The notes under the pieces: generated by a model
What the model was told of the DNA's origin: nothing
The model's input: only the letters and a program-made list of their open reading frames with translations
Database searches by the model: none
Position numbers and translations under genes: made by a program
Assembly: GCF_014695385.1 (NCBI RefSeq)
Contig: NZ_JACJOD010000030.1
Location: 248,001 to 312,000, forward strand
Direction: 5' to 3'
Length of the DNA stretch: 64,000 bases
From: Trichocoleus sp. FACHB-46
GTDB lineage: Bacteria > Cyanobacteriota > Cyanobacteriia > FACHB-46
Shown here: positions 3,388 through 8,340 of the stretch, piece by piece
Position numbering within the stretch: the first letter of the stretch is position 1
Layout of the letters: each line of letters starts with the position of its first letter

Positions 3388-4194
3388 TTAGCTACCAACA
3401 AGACTAGGAGCTGTAACTTGCACAATTAGCAGTGAGAAGTAGGACAGTTGGAGGTTAGGGCGATCGCTCAGATTGGCATAAATTACCTGCTCTGGCAAGG
3501 TGGCTCGCTCAACCACATAACTACGATTTAAAAGTTGCTGCTGCTGCAAAATGGCCCATACCTGTTCGTACACAGAACTAACTTTCATCAAAACCACCAC
3601 ATCTGCCCATTGCAGCGCGGTTTCTAATTCTGATACATGGTACAGCGCTGGTAGCACCACGAGCCGCTGCGCTTGCATCGTCAAAGGAATACCTAAAGTC
3701 GCCGCCGCAGCTAAGGGAGAGCAAATCCCTGGGATGGTCTGTACCTTAGCTTCTGGGTGGAGGTGTTGCAAACTTTGAGCTAAATATGTGAAAGTGCTGA
3801 AAAAGCTGACATCCCCCTCAGAAACAAAGGCTACATCCTGGCCTTGCTGTAAATAGGGCCAAACCGACTTGGCGGCTTGCTGCCATGCTTGTGTCAGCGT
3901 GTCTGTATCTTGAACATAAGGAAAATTTAGGGCTAGGCGCACTTGATGGGGCTGTAACCACTCAGCCACAATCTGCTCAGCCATGCCGAGTTTGCCTTTT
4001 ACTCCTGCTGGAAAAGCAACGACTGATGCTTGCTTTAGTAGGCGTAGCCCTTTGAGCGTGAGAAGTTCTGGATCGCCTGTACCCGCGCCAATGCCATACA
4101 AGGTTCCGATTTCGGCGATCGCAGGTTCAGTTGAGTTTGCGAATGCAGCAGTCACCAATTCATCCTTTGCAATAGTCTCTTCTGAGTCTGACAT
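3388..4194 (-). CDS. cobI: precorrin-2 C20-methyltransferase
   Basis: 268-residue SAM-dependent tetrapyrrole methylase (CobI/CbiL type) that methylates C20 of precorrin-2 or its cobalt form in the corrin branch of cobalamin synthesis. The family motif GIGAGTGDPELLTLKG follows a leader of about 30 residues. VAFVSEGDVSFFSTFTYL and QTIPGICSPLAAAATLGIPL are further hallmark blocks. The leader is slightly long, so a later start is possible. No other cobalamin gene is adjacent. The cofactor product is needed by the class II ribonucleotide reductase also found in this window. The gene diverges from the cytochrome b6-like gene. Confidence 0.92.
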   Translation of the reverse strand: MSDSEETIAKDELVTAAFANSTEPAIAEIGTLYGIGAGTGDPELLTLKGLRLLKQASVVAFPAGVKGKLGMAEQIVAEWLQPHQVRLALNFPYVQDTDTLTQAWQQAAKSVWPYLQQGQDVAFVSEGDVSFFSTFTYLAQSLQHLHPEAKVQTIPGICSPLAAAATLGIPLTMQAQRLVVLPALYHVSELETALQWADVVVLMKVSSVYEQVWAILQQQQLLNRSYVVERATLPEQVIYANLSDRPNLQLSYFSLLIVQVTAPSLVGS

Positions 4195-4359: not shown

Positions 4360-4986
4360 ATGAAAAACGTGCAGTACGCGGTAGTTTGGCGGCGACTCGC
4401 TACGGTTTTGGCTGTAGCTGTTTTGACTTTGAGTCTCATAGCAGCGATCACAGGAATTTTGCTCGCGTTCTATTACGAACCTACGGCAGGCGGTGCTTAT
4501 GAGTCCTTGCGACTGATTAACACTGAAGTCACGAATGGTTGGTTGATTCAAAATCTGCACAGCGTGGCTGGCAATGGCCTCATTGTTATTTCTCTCATCC
4601 AAATTGTGGTGATGTTTCTCGGAGAGCGTTTTCGTTCCAGTTGGTTAACAGCTTGGATTAGCGGTATTTTGCTGACTTTGACGGCGATCGCCTTAGGTTG
4701 GACGGCTATGATCTTGAGCTGGAGCCAACTTGGTTATTGGCGCTTCAAGATTGAATTAGAAACCATCCAAGCCATCCCCTTGATTGGACCTGCCTTACGC
4801 GAAATTTTGACAGGTGGTTCAGTCAGCACAGTTACGGTGGAGCATCTTTACACTTTGCACAGCTACTTGCTGGCTATTGGAGCCGTTTTGCTCGCGGTCA
4901 TTCACCTAGTCAGCTTGTTGTTTCAAGAAAAAGAAGCTAAGCAGGCTGATGTTGGAAGTACCAATCTAGATGCGGAATTGTCCTAA
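4360..4986 (+). CDS. cytochrome b6-like membrane protein with an incomplete heme-ligand set
   Basis: 208 residues with about four transmembrane helices, collinear with cytochrome b6 of the b6f complex. GILLAFYYEP, GWLIQNLH, LSWSQLGYW and TLHSYLL match b6 blocks. Three of the four expected axial histidines are present: His66, and the two of helix D spaced 15 apart (HSYLL...VIH). The position 14 residues after His66, where b6 has the second ligand of that helix, is Gln. The residue equivalent to the b6 Cys that holds heme c is Leu. This is therefore not the main PetB. It is a paralogue likely to bind one b heme normally and a second weakly or not at all. No petC, petA or petD neighbour is present. 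Function unknown. Confidence 0.8.
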   Translation: MKNVQYAVVWRRLATVLAVAVLTLSLIAAITGILLAFYYEPTAGGAYESLRLINTEVTNGWLIQNLHSVAGNGLIVISLIQIVVMFLGERFRSSWLTAWISGILLTLTAIALGWTAMILSWSQLGYWRFKIELETIQAIPLIGPALREILTGGSVSTVTVEHLYTLHSYLLAIGAVLLAVIHLVSLLFQEKEAKQADVGSTNLDAELS

Positions 4987-5015: not shown

Positions 5016-6983
5016 TCAACTTGAGATAGGAGGTGGTACAACTTCTGTCTCCCTAGGCGTTACTTGGGCTTCTACGAAGACAGGAGCTTCTAAGGCAGGT
5101 TCGGGAGTTGGAATTTCTTCTACTGCGGCTAATTTCTCCAAGGTGAGGCGAGGCTGGGTGGTGCCAGATAGCAACTTTAGTAGGGTAGGCCGAGGGTCAT
5201 GTAATAGATAAATAATGCGATCGCCCGCTTCCCACTCTTCCTGGGCAGGCATAATTTGCAAATGGTCATCGCGCTCTAGGAGTATTGGAATCAGCTCACC
5301 GGAGCGAATCAAAGCTTGCAGATGAGCCTGCTGAAAAGCAAAACCCTCATCCCGTAGCATCGTCTCGCCCAGCTTGACTGCACCGCTGCTCAAATAGTCG
5401 TTCCAAGCTTTGATGGGGAGCTCTGGAACAAAAGCTTGATGCACTTTATGGCTCTTATTAACAGCACTCGCTTGAGGATCGCGTGGGAAAACAGCTAGAA
5501 CCCGAGGCGGATGAAATTCTTCGGCGGCTCGTTGTGCGAGCACCACATTCACTTCACCGTTGTTGGTCATAGCCAGAAAGGTGCCAACTGAGCCTAGTCC
5601 CGCTTCTTCTAGCACTCCAGCATCTAGACCACTGCTAACAAAAACCCGCACATTCTCCTCTGCTGCTAAACGACAGGCTTCAGCATCTGTGTCAATCAAG
5701 ACTACAGCTTCACCGCGTTCATCAAATAAGCGCGCCAGAAGACGACTGAGAGGACTACAGCCAATAATGACCGCACCTGTCGCTTGAGTGGAGGTAATGC
5801 CTAACCAACGAGCGACCCAACCCGCAGACAGACCTTGGACAAAGACGGTCATGAGGATTGTCAAAAAAACTAAGGCCTTAATCGCATCTCCCCCGTTAAT
5901 CCCGCGTTCGGTCAGCAAAATAGAAAACAAGGAAGCAACCGAAGCGGACACAATACCTCTAGGAGCCACCCAACACAAAAATAGCTTTTGTCGCCAGTTC
6001 AGGTTGCTGCTCCAAGAGGTACAGAGCCAAATATTGAGGGGGCGGACGATGAACATCAAGACTAAGACTGTGAGTACCCCACCTGGGCCTAAAGCGAAAA
6101 TACTAGCGATCGAAAGATCCGCTGAGAGCAGAATAAATAAAACCGAAACTGCCAACGTGGTCAGCTGTCCTTTGAAGCGTCGGATCAAGCGCTCTTCCGG
6201 CAGTGAGGATGCTCGCAACATCATTCCAGCCGCCACCGTTGCCATCAAGCCTGACTCACTTCGGAGCATTTGAGCCAAGCCAAACAAGCCCCAGAGCCCC
6301 GCTAAAACGGTTAAGTTTTTGAGATCATCTGATAAGAAGCGGGCTCGTTTAATCACAAAGCCTAGTGAAAGACCCCCCACCAAACCGATACCACCGCCAA
6401 TGCCCAGTCGGAGCATTAAGCCACTGAACACCAGAACTGGGTCGGCATCACCGTTGAGAATGATGTTGAGCACTACCACAGCCAAAATGGCTCCCACCGG
6501 ATCGATCAGGACGCCTTCGCCTTCCAGCAAGGCTGCCACCTGACGATCAACCTGTACTTGCTTCAGCAGGGGGCTAATGACAGTGGGTCCAGTAACGACC
6601 ACGAGGGAGGCGTAAAGAAACGCGATCGGCCAAGGAAATTCACTCAGCCAATAAGCCGCAATGCCACCACCGACTAAGGTAATCAGAGTGCCGATTGTCA
6701 CTAAGTTGCGGAGGCTCCCGGAAACCCGACCCAGCTCTCCGAGTTCTAGATTGAGCCCCCCTTCAAATAAAATCAGCGCTACGAAGAGGGAGACAATCAC
6801 TTCTAACCCAGTGCCGAGCAAATTTGGGTGCAAGATATCTAAACCATCAGAGCCCAGCAGAATGCCAAAAAGGAGCAAGAAAACGATGCTCGGCACTTTG
6901 CAAAATTCGGCAATCACCTGAGCACTGATGCCTGCGATGACTGTAATGATCATCAGCAGTGTAATTTCAAAGGATGCTTCCAT
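5016..6983 (-). CDS. CPA1-family cation:proton antiporter with TrkA-N domain
   Basis: 655 residues. The first about 400 form 12 or so transmembrane helices typical of NhaP-type Na+(K+)/H+ exchangers, with the inner-membrane motifs FEGGLNLEL and EGEGVLIDPVGAI that carry the ion-binding acidic residues, and VAPRGIVSASVASL. A cytoplasmic TrkA-N-type Rossmann domain follows (about 400-530; the start VIIGCSPLSRLLA is a degenerate GxGxxG), then a TrkA-C-like end. The tail suggests gating by a nucleotide. It is larger than bare NhaP because of this regulatory tail, a layout common in cyanobacteria. It stands alone between convergent and same-strand neighbours. The transported cation is not deducible from sequence. 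Confidence 0.9.
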   Translation of the reverse strand: MEASFEITLLMIITVIAGISAQVIAEFCKVPSIVFLLLFGILLGSDGLDILHPNLLGTGLEVIVSLFVALILFEGGLNLELGELGRVSGSLRNLVTIGTLITLVGGGIAAYWLSEFPWPIAFLYASLVVVTGPTVISPLLKQVQVDRQVAALLEGEGVLIDPVGAILAVVVLNIILNGDADPVLVFSGLMLRLGIGGGIGLVGGLSLGFVIKRARFLSDDLKNLTVLAGLWGLFGLAQMLRSESGLMATVAAGMMLRASSLPEERLIRRFKGQLTTLAVSVLFILLSADLSIASIFALGPGGVLTVLVLMFIVRPLNIWLCTSWSSNLNWRQKLFLCWVAPRGIVSASVASLFSILLTERGINGGDAIKALVFLTILMTVFVQGLSAGWVARWLGITSTQATGAVIIGCSPLSRLLARLFDERGEAVVLIDTDAEACRLAAEENVRVFVSSGLDAGVLEEAGLGSVGTFLAMTNNGEVNVVLAQRAAEEFHPPRVLAVFPRDPQASAVNKSHKVHQAFVPELPIKAWNDYLSSGAVKLGETMLRDEGFAFQQAHLQALIRSGELIPILLERDDHLQIMPAQEEWEAGDRIIYLLHDPRPTLLKLLSGTTQPRLTLEKLAAVEEIPTPEPALEAPVFVEAQVTPRETEVVPPPISS

Positions 6984-7152: not shown

Positions 7153-8340
7153 TTACTGCTTCAGTAATAGATAGTAGAGTTGACCCGTTGAATTTGTCAG
7201 GCCCGCGCGATCGCCTGCCTTCACCCCTGTACCCATGAAAATATCAACTCGTCCTGGGCCTTTAATGGCGCTTCCCGTATCTTGATCCAAGACGTAGCGG
7301 CTCACGGGGCGTTGTTCTAATTTGCCAGCCACACTTGGCTGGGGCAGCGGGGTGTCAATCAAAGCTAGAGCACCGGGTGGCATGAGAGATTTGTCGGTTG
7401 CGATCGATCGCTCAGCCGTTACGGGCACGCCTAAACTACCAGTTGCCGCTGCACCATAGGTTTCTCGAAAGAACACGAAACTGCGGTTGCGTGGCAAATA
7501 AACGTCGAGGTCTTCAGGATGCTGATGAAAGTATTCCAGCAAATTAGGCAGTGTTAGGTCTTCCAGACGCATCTTGCCATCTTTGACTAACTCGCGGCCA
7601 ACTCCGGTGTAAGGATGATTGGTCTTGCCCGCAAAGCCAACGGTCATTGTGCTGCCGTCCGTCATTTGCAGGCGAGCCGAACCTTGCACTTGAATCAGAA
7701 ATGCTTCTAGGCGATCGCGTAACCAAACCAACTCCAGATTCTTCAGCGGCCCCTTGGCAAATTGCAGCCCATCCTTTCCTTCCAATCGAGCCCTGGTTGG
7801 CTGAGGTTTAGACCACTCAGCTAAACCGGGCGGCACCCGAAATAGAGGATAGCGATATTCAGCCGTACGGACGCGGCTAGCAGTATAAGTAGGCTCAAAG
7901 TAACCTGTATAGGCAACAGTGCCTTGGTTGTCTTTGCCCACGGCTCGATACAAAACAAACTCCCGCTGCACCGCTGCCTTTAGCTCTGCCGCAGAACGCG
8001 ACTTTGTCACCAACTGGCGAAATCTAACCAAACTGCGACGCACGCGATCGCGGTTAATTCCGGGCACCGAATGCTTCTGATAATCTGCCGCTGCTTTAGG
8101 AGTTTGGAGATAGGCCAAACTATGGTCGATCGCCGCTAATAAAGCTGCCCGATCCCCCGGCTGGCCTGCTTGAGGCCAGATTTTGTCGTCAAGCCCGAGG
8201 GAGGTCGGTAGCGAAACAGATGAAGTAACAGGTTGCAGGGGTTGAACTGCAAAAATAGGCTGATGAGTTGCTGTGAGCGTAACTCCAAAACTGAGAGCAA
8301 CGACAGCAAGCCATCTTTGAGCCTTAGCAAAGCCAGACAT
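7153..8340 (-). CDS. mltA: membrane-bound lytic murein transglycosylase A
   Basis: 395 residues with an N-terminal signal peptide (hydrophobic about 8-30, ending near Ala-Val). It cleaves the beta-1,4 bond between MurNAc and GlcNAc of peptidoglycan, leaving 1,6-anhydro ends. The MltA domain shows GYFEPTYTAS, VWLRDRLEAFLIQVQGSARLQ and YTGVGREL. The C-terminal 3D domain has GSAIKGPGRVDIFMGTG with the catalytic Asp. No lipobox Cys is evident, so it is probably a soluble periplasmic form rather than a lipoprotein. The gene downstream on the same strand is the antiporter, about 170 nt away. Family assignment secure. Confidence 0.93.
   Translation of the reverse strand: MSGFAKAQRWLAVVALSFGVTLTATHQPIFAVQPLQPVTSSVSLPTSLGLDDKIWPQAGQPGDRAALLAAIDHSLAYLQTPKAAADYQKHSVPGINRDRVRRSLVRFRQLVTKSRSAAELKAAVQREFVLYRAVGKDNQGTVAYTGYFEPTYTASRVRTAEYRYPLFRVPPGLAEWSKPQPTRARLEGKDGLQFAKGPLKNLELVWLRDRLEAFLIQVQGSARLQMTDGSTMTVGFAGKTNHPYTGVGRELVKDGKMRLEDLTLPNLLEYFHQHPEDLDVYLPRNRSFVFFRETYGAAATGSLGVPVTAERSIATDKSLMPPGALALIDTPLPQPSVAGKLEQRPVSRYVLDQDTGSAIKGPGRVDIFMGTGVKAGDRAGLTNSTGQLYYLLLKQ

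Follow-up and report, generated by a model that had tools for sequence, protein, structure and literature searches.

Few bioenergetic proteins are as constrained as cytochrome b, whose four heme histidines are usually regarded as fixed. In cytochrome b6, the axial ligands are H86, H100, H187, and H202, and Cys35 is the heme-cn cysteine (PMC5730185, in the portion available). According to the same text, b6 carrying both H86A and H187A no longer binds heme, and the p-side heme is the first to be bound. Therefore, a b6 protein without an n-side ligand could hold one p-side heme. Arg207 has been placed at the n-side of b6f (PMC9162462, excerpt). In Rhodobacter capsulatus, cytochrome b H198N carries a high-spin, high-potential heme and does not turn over (PMC8138165, excerpt); the Rhodobacter H212N mutant has been termed a heme bH knock-out (PMC4807273, excerpt). 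Here we describe a cytochrome b6 paralogue that many cyanobacteria carry. Literature searches for b6-like or petB paralogues, in which subscription journals were thinly covered, returned no description of this family, and the available part of PMC7368068 does not mention it.

We analyzed a 64,000-nucleotide stretch of the Trichocoleus sp. FACHB-46 genome, hereafter the window. A monocistronic-looking gene on the + strand (4360..4986, ATG start) encodes a protein of 208 amino acids that is a clear cytochrome b/b6 homologue. It matches Pfam PF00033 (Cytochrome_B) at 94.7 bits (E 8.4e-27; gathering cut-off 27.2), and phmmer relates it to the best solved b6 chain at E 3.6e-27. Identity to PetB is about 28% over 195 columns. 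The NCBIfam models gave matches below their cut-offs, the highest being NF040969 (ExtP; 106.5 bits, E 1.6e-30, cut-off 290); NF002990, cytochrome b6 (PRK03735), scored 103 bits against a curated cut-off of 325. DUF4405 (PF14358) reached 17.1 bits, under its gathering cut-off of 26.7. An AlphaFold2 model computed from 40 aligned family members (mean pLDDT 89.7) has the four-helix cytochrome b fold. The ten best Foldseek matches to this model were all b6 chains, and VIA-align superposed it on 7r0w_A with a Z of 19.1 over 187 residues. The Pfam, phmmer, and fold matches thus uphold the first-pass annotation, which had called the gene a cytochrome b6 paralogue.

We aligned the protein with PetB, using standard b6 numbering; all codons are on the + strand. 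His67 (4558..4560) corresponds to H86 and His167 (4858..4860) to H187, the ligands of the p-side heme. His182 (4903..4905) corresponds to the n-side ligand H202, and Gln81 (4600..4602) takes the place of its lost counterpart, H100. The ligand spacings, 14 residues from 67 to 81 and 15 from 167 to 182, equal those in b6. The alignment, made as a check on the first-pass annotation, agrees with its description of three axial histidines at b6 spacing and a fourth replaced by Gln. The annotation was also right that the heme-cn Cys is missing: Val16 (4405..4407) lies at C35, the attachment position, and the protein contains no Cys at all. It had given the replacing residue as Leu, which the alignment corrects to Val; the Leu meant is probably Leu24, which sits at b6 Cys43.

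We examined conservation across 182 distinct paralogues. The complete set of axial histidines (HHHH) occurs in 0/182 of them vs 22/22 PetB rows. Site 81, the position at which another His would restore the fourth ligand, is Gln in 169 members, Glu in eight, Asp in three, and Asn in two. As it is never His, the stroma-side heme site is gone, in line with the annotation's view that this heme is short of one ligand; the contrast with the PetB rows also lets us dismiss chance or sequencing error. The heme-cn column is likewise never Cys (I 132, V 26, L 15, T 6, A 1, Y 1, gap 1). The lumen-side His pair, which had been described as complete, is so in the window protein but varies in the family, with Tyr in three members at site 67 (His in 179) and Asn in ten at site 167 (His in 172). 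The orphaned n-side ligand at site 182 is His in 176 members and Asn in six. In the order 67, 81, 167, and 182, the patterns are HQHH (153 members), HQNH (9), HEHH (7), HQHN (4), HDHH, YQHH, and HNHH (2 each), and YQHN, HDNH, and HEHN (1 each). Since the p-side pair is optional in the family, even heme binding is something that we infer rather than observe.

Thirteen columns are invariant in the 182 paralogues, and no heme ligand is among them. Five invariant residues are not shared by b6: R12, T15, W95, R128, and E132. On a quick tree built with the four ligand columns masked, we estimate minimum numbers of changes of 3, 10, 6, and 3 at sites 67, 81, 167, and 182 and of 0 at R128 and E132; in an earlier quick tree, inner branches were often weakly supported. 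Despite the ligand variation, the family is under purifying selection. In 12 within-family pairs, one of them with saturated dS, dN/dS was 0.085-0.16. As these pairs include some with Asn or Tyr at ligand positions, ligand loss does not reflect gene decay.

The invariant Arg and Glu define the family at a second site. Arg128 (4741..4743) and Glu132 (4753..4755), each present in 182/182 paralogues, align with A147 and V151 of b6, which are Ala and Val in 20/20 distinct PetB sequences and belong to the Qp pocket. In a full-length Mesorhizobium cytochrome b, the same positions align with the Gly and Ile of the FWGATVIT motif, and we take this Gly to be the site of the G143A strobilurin-resistance change. 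By these alignments, R128 and E132 map to the quinol-oxidation (Qo/Qp) pocket, which an Arg with a Glu one turn further along the helix should fill. As a classical quinol site is unlikely, the proposal in the first-pass annotation of a quinone-binding carrier with a single heme holds only in part. One heme is plausible; the quinone-carrier part is unsupported, given the Arg-Glu pair in the Qo/Qp pocket, an n-side quinone site that would have no heme, and the lack of a dedicated PEWY subunit IV in most of the carriers scanned.

Changes around the heme sites extend beyond the ligands. We take the Gly columns of b6 (G37, G38, and G51) and its Arg columns to be features of the n-side or p-side heme surroundings. 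In the paralogues, the G37 and G38 columns hold Ser or Ala and Val, respectively, the Arg column beside the n-side ligand holds V, I, L, A, or M, and the R207 column holds L, V, I, F, or M in nearly all members. The n-side end of helix B is strongly conserved (IQIVVMF) and site 81 stays polar, which suggests that the n-side pocket may still have some role. On the p-side, the helix A Gly (G32, equivalent to b6 G51) is retained in all 181 members with a letter at this column. The Arg columns R83 and R87 are not retained; they are Q64 and S68 in the window protein and variable in the family, mostly D, N, or E. The loss of these Arg columns disfavors an unchanged p-side heme pocket.

To delimit the family in genome searches, we used a cut of E 1e-35. 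The weakest family match among those listed was 1.2e-60 and PetB matches begin at 1.7e-29; thus, the two groups are cleanly separated. The paralogue belongs to an orthologous family that is present in 78 of the 388 genomes sampled in the class, in 174/217 genomes of the taxonomic family to which genome G128 belongs, and in 9/39 of the relatives searched first. Named carriers include Nostoc, Tolypothrix, Leptolyngbya, Phormidesmis, Gloeocapsa, Myxacorys, and Microcoleus records, and genomes G170 and G126 each harbor a second copy. One copy (L150, genome G148) is missing its N-terminal part, contains an in-frame TAG, and is a probable pseudogene. Five loci (L110, L147, L148, L149, and L155) encode long forms with an N-terminal extension (FPE.WQ.YQ.WLRDI ... 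FRWRL.YF). L110 is 321 amino acids long and the other four are 289-329 (longest ATG start); the extension matched no Pfam family and resembled nothing in the other loci compared. Matches on plasmids were all below 60% identity, and the three that we examined were full-length cytochromes b of other bacteria. A Helicobacter phage record (PQ159902.1, 36332-36754) ends in a cytochrome b-like stretch (E 2e-11) that is probably flanking host DNA.

The gene stands apart from the cytochrome b6f genes, as the annotation had noted for its surroundings. In the Trichocoleus genome, petD adjoins the canonical petB on contig C10 and the genes for the Rieske protein and cytochrome f are on C6; on the window's contig, C30, we found no PF00032 (petD) match. 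We scanned 14 genomes that carry the paralogue for PF00032, and 12 of them had a single match above the cut-off. A second PetD in the Trichocoleus genome (C32:40895-41158; L161 6881-7138, - strand) is an open frame of 102 amino acids and apparently shortened, and one in genome G001 (C1:199264-199545; L162 6070-6552, + strand) is full length, with 160 amino acids and PEWY. Despite these second copies, the single match in 12/14 carriers led us to reject a dedicated subunit IV as a general partner.

In the window, the paralogue lies alone on the + strand between two - strand genes, encoding a precorrin-2 C20-methyltransferase (3388-4194) on the left and a Na+/H+ antiporter (5016-6983) on the right. 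Two genes further, 7153-8340 (-) encodes an MltA/3D-domain protein, a probable lytic transglycosylase. We compared 81 loci, consisting of the window and the best 80 of 102 relatives; the set leans to Nostocales and some loci end at contig edges. The antiporter gene lies directly downstream on the opposite strand in 56/81 loci, including the window, and is an ordinary conserved neighbor. In 59/81 loci, a PGAP1-like hydrolase gene immediately precedes the paralogue and is read from the same strand; the gap, measured over 60 pairs, is 39 to 634 bases. The flanks of 49/81 loci contain a gene for a c-type cytochrome, for plastocyanin, or for both, and one representative each scored over the cut-off for the PsbV, PetJ, and plastocyanin models. 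This neighborhood is mostly synteny of one clade and is absent from the window. In the Trichocoleus genome, a search for the hydrolase (run without a positive control) and one for the plastocyanin family (positive in 5/14 genomes) gave no match, so neither is an obligatory partner, and we rejected the hydrolase as an obligatory operon partner.

We favor, with a probability of about one half, the interpretation that b6 has here been turned into a one-heme membrane protein with a redox or sensing/regulatory role on the lumen side. The four-helix N-terminal half of cytochrome b would have given rise to a stand-alone protein, specific to cyanobacteria, that no longer possesses the n-side (stromal) machinery: heme bn and heme cn would be gone, as would the quinone site on that side. 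In most members, including the window protein, the lumenal (p-side) heme pocket and its bis-His pair would be retained, and the quinol-oxidation pocket would be filled or rebuilt by the invariant Arg and Glu. A single p-side heme b is likely; on the lumenal side of the membrane, the protein would exchange electrons or act as a sensor of redox state or of a small ligand, and it would probably dock to a partner through the R128/E132 surface. With no heme bn and a blocked Qp pocket, the protein could support neither a Q cycle nor transmembrane electron transfer through two b hemes. Three observations count against this interpretation, namely the H67Y and H167N replacements in relatives, the loss of the R83 and R87 columns, and the polar site 81 with the conserved n-side end of helix B. 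For those Nostocaceae members that carry H167N, any retained heme is expected to be high-spin, by analogy with R. capsulatus H198N. More tentatively, we suggest that the family forms a class of one-heme cytochromes b, five-coordinate in some lineages, that are natural versions of the H198N and H212N mutants. With a site on its p-side heme freed by the His-to-Asn change in some Nostocaceae, the protein would then sense redox state, or a gas or other ligand, in the lumen instead of bifurcating electrons, although we consider this doubtful.

A different possibility, which we take seriously while judging it unlikely, is that the protein has a non-redox role in assembly, docking, or regulation of the thylakoid/b6f or photosystem machinery, with heme being structural or dispensable. 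The absence of an invariant heme ligand would then be expected alongside five invariant family-specific residues, as would repeated independent ligand losses with dN/dS still about 0.1, and the photosynthetic genes flanking 49/81 loci would fit. However, a pure scaffold would not need the three ligand histidines that 153/182 members keep, and the photosynthetic neighbors, as largely one clade's synteny, are missing from both the window and, for plastocyanin, the whole Trichocoleus genome as searched.

Incorporation into the b6f complex is improbable. In such a model, the paralogue would replace b6 in half of the dimer or pair with the canonical PetD, giving a modified or half-inactive complex. 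The b6 fold is predicted over nearly the whole length, and in two genomes (G015 and G034) a distant b6-like gene has a PEWY subunit IV-like gene directly behind it (L138). Nevertheless, R128 and E132 would occupy the Qp pocket, 12/14 carriers have one PF00032 match, and the low identity to PetB argues for altered interfaces. The four ligand sites show H, Q, E, D, N, and rarely Y. H, Q, E, D, and N are side chains that commonly ligate chlorophyll, so the pockets might hold that or another tetrapyrrole in place of heme. We think this very improbable, as identical replacements are conservative for a buried His and His is present in most members. Hardly credible is a functionless, decaying petB duplicate: one copy is truncated with an in-frame stop and the ligands are variable, but purifying selection (dN/dS about 0.1), presence in 174/217 genomes of one family, and 13 invariant columns already contradict decay.

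Thus, a common cyanobacterial paralogue of cytochrome b persists with three or two heme histidines under purifying selection, and with two quinol-pocket residues frozen. Should the protein hold a single p-side heme, nature would have supplied an experiment on the capabilities of half a cytochrome b, and lumenal electron transport in cyanobacteria, or its regulation, may include an unrecognized component. Laboratory Nostoc strains would give genetic access, provided that an orthologue occurs there.

Compared with known systems, the paralogue is closest in form to PetB. Both are four-helix bundles of about 210 amino acids with a matching fold (Z 19.1), the p-side His pair, a helix A Gly near the p-side heme, and the GYW and IP..G motifs of the cd loop. 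The paralogue differs in lacking H100 and C35, in having R128/E132 for A147/V151 and no adjoining petD, and in its divergent sequence (about 28% identity). ExtP (NF040969), the b-type cytochrome of a selenite/tellurite operon, is likewise a short, stand-alone b6-like cytochrome, but the paralogue scores far under the ExtP cut-off of 290 and the selenite/tellurite operon is absent here.

The b6-like protein of G015 and G034 (L137 and L138) has the ligand pattern HFHH, in which Phe replaces the fourth ligand that the paralogue also lacks, and it shares the YWR..IE residues. It is only 26-28% identical to the paralogue and has a subunit IV-like PEWY neighbor. In G034 this neighbor is 135 amino acids long and scores 59.1 bits, below the subunit IV cut-off of 127.05; in G015 a PF00032 match adjoins the b6-like copy. 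L137 and L138 possibly represent a reduced b6/IV pair. As the b6-like protein scores 81 bits to the paralogue family and 88 to PetB, these scores do not establish common descent with the paralogue, and the common YWR..IE residues may be convergent or ancestral. Finally, equivalents of the Rhodobacter mutants H198N (bL) and H212N (bH knock-out) occur naturally in the family, as H167N in 10/182 members and H182N in 6/182. The Rhodobacter changes are laboratory mutations within a complete bc1 complex, whereas the paralogues that carry them are natural, stand-alone proteins.
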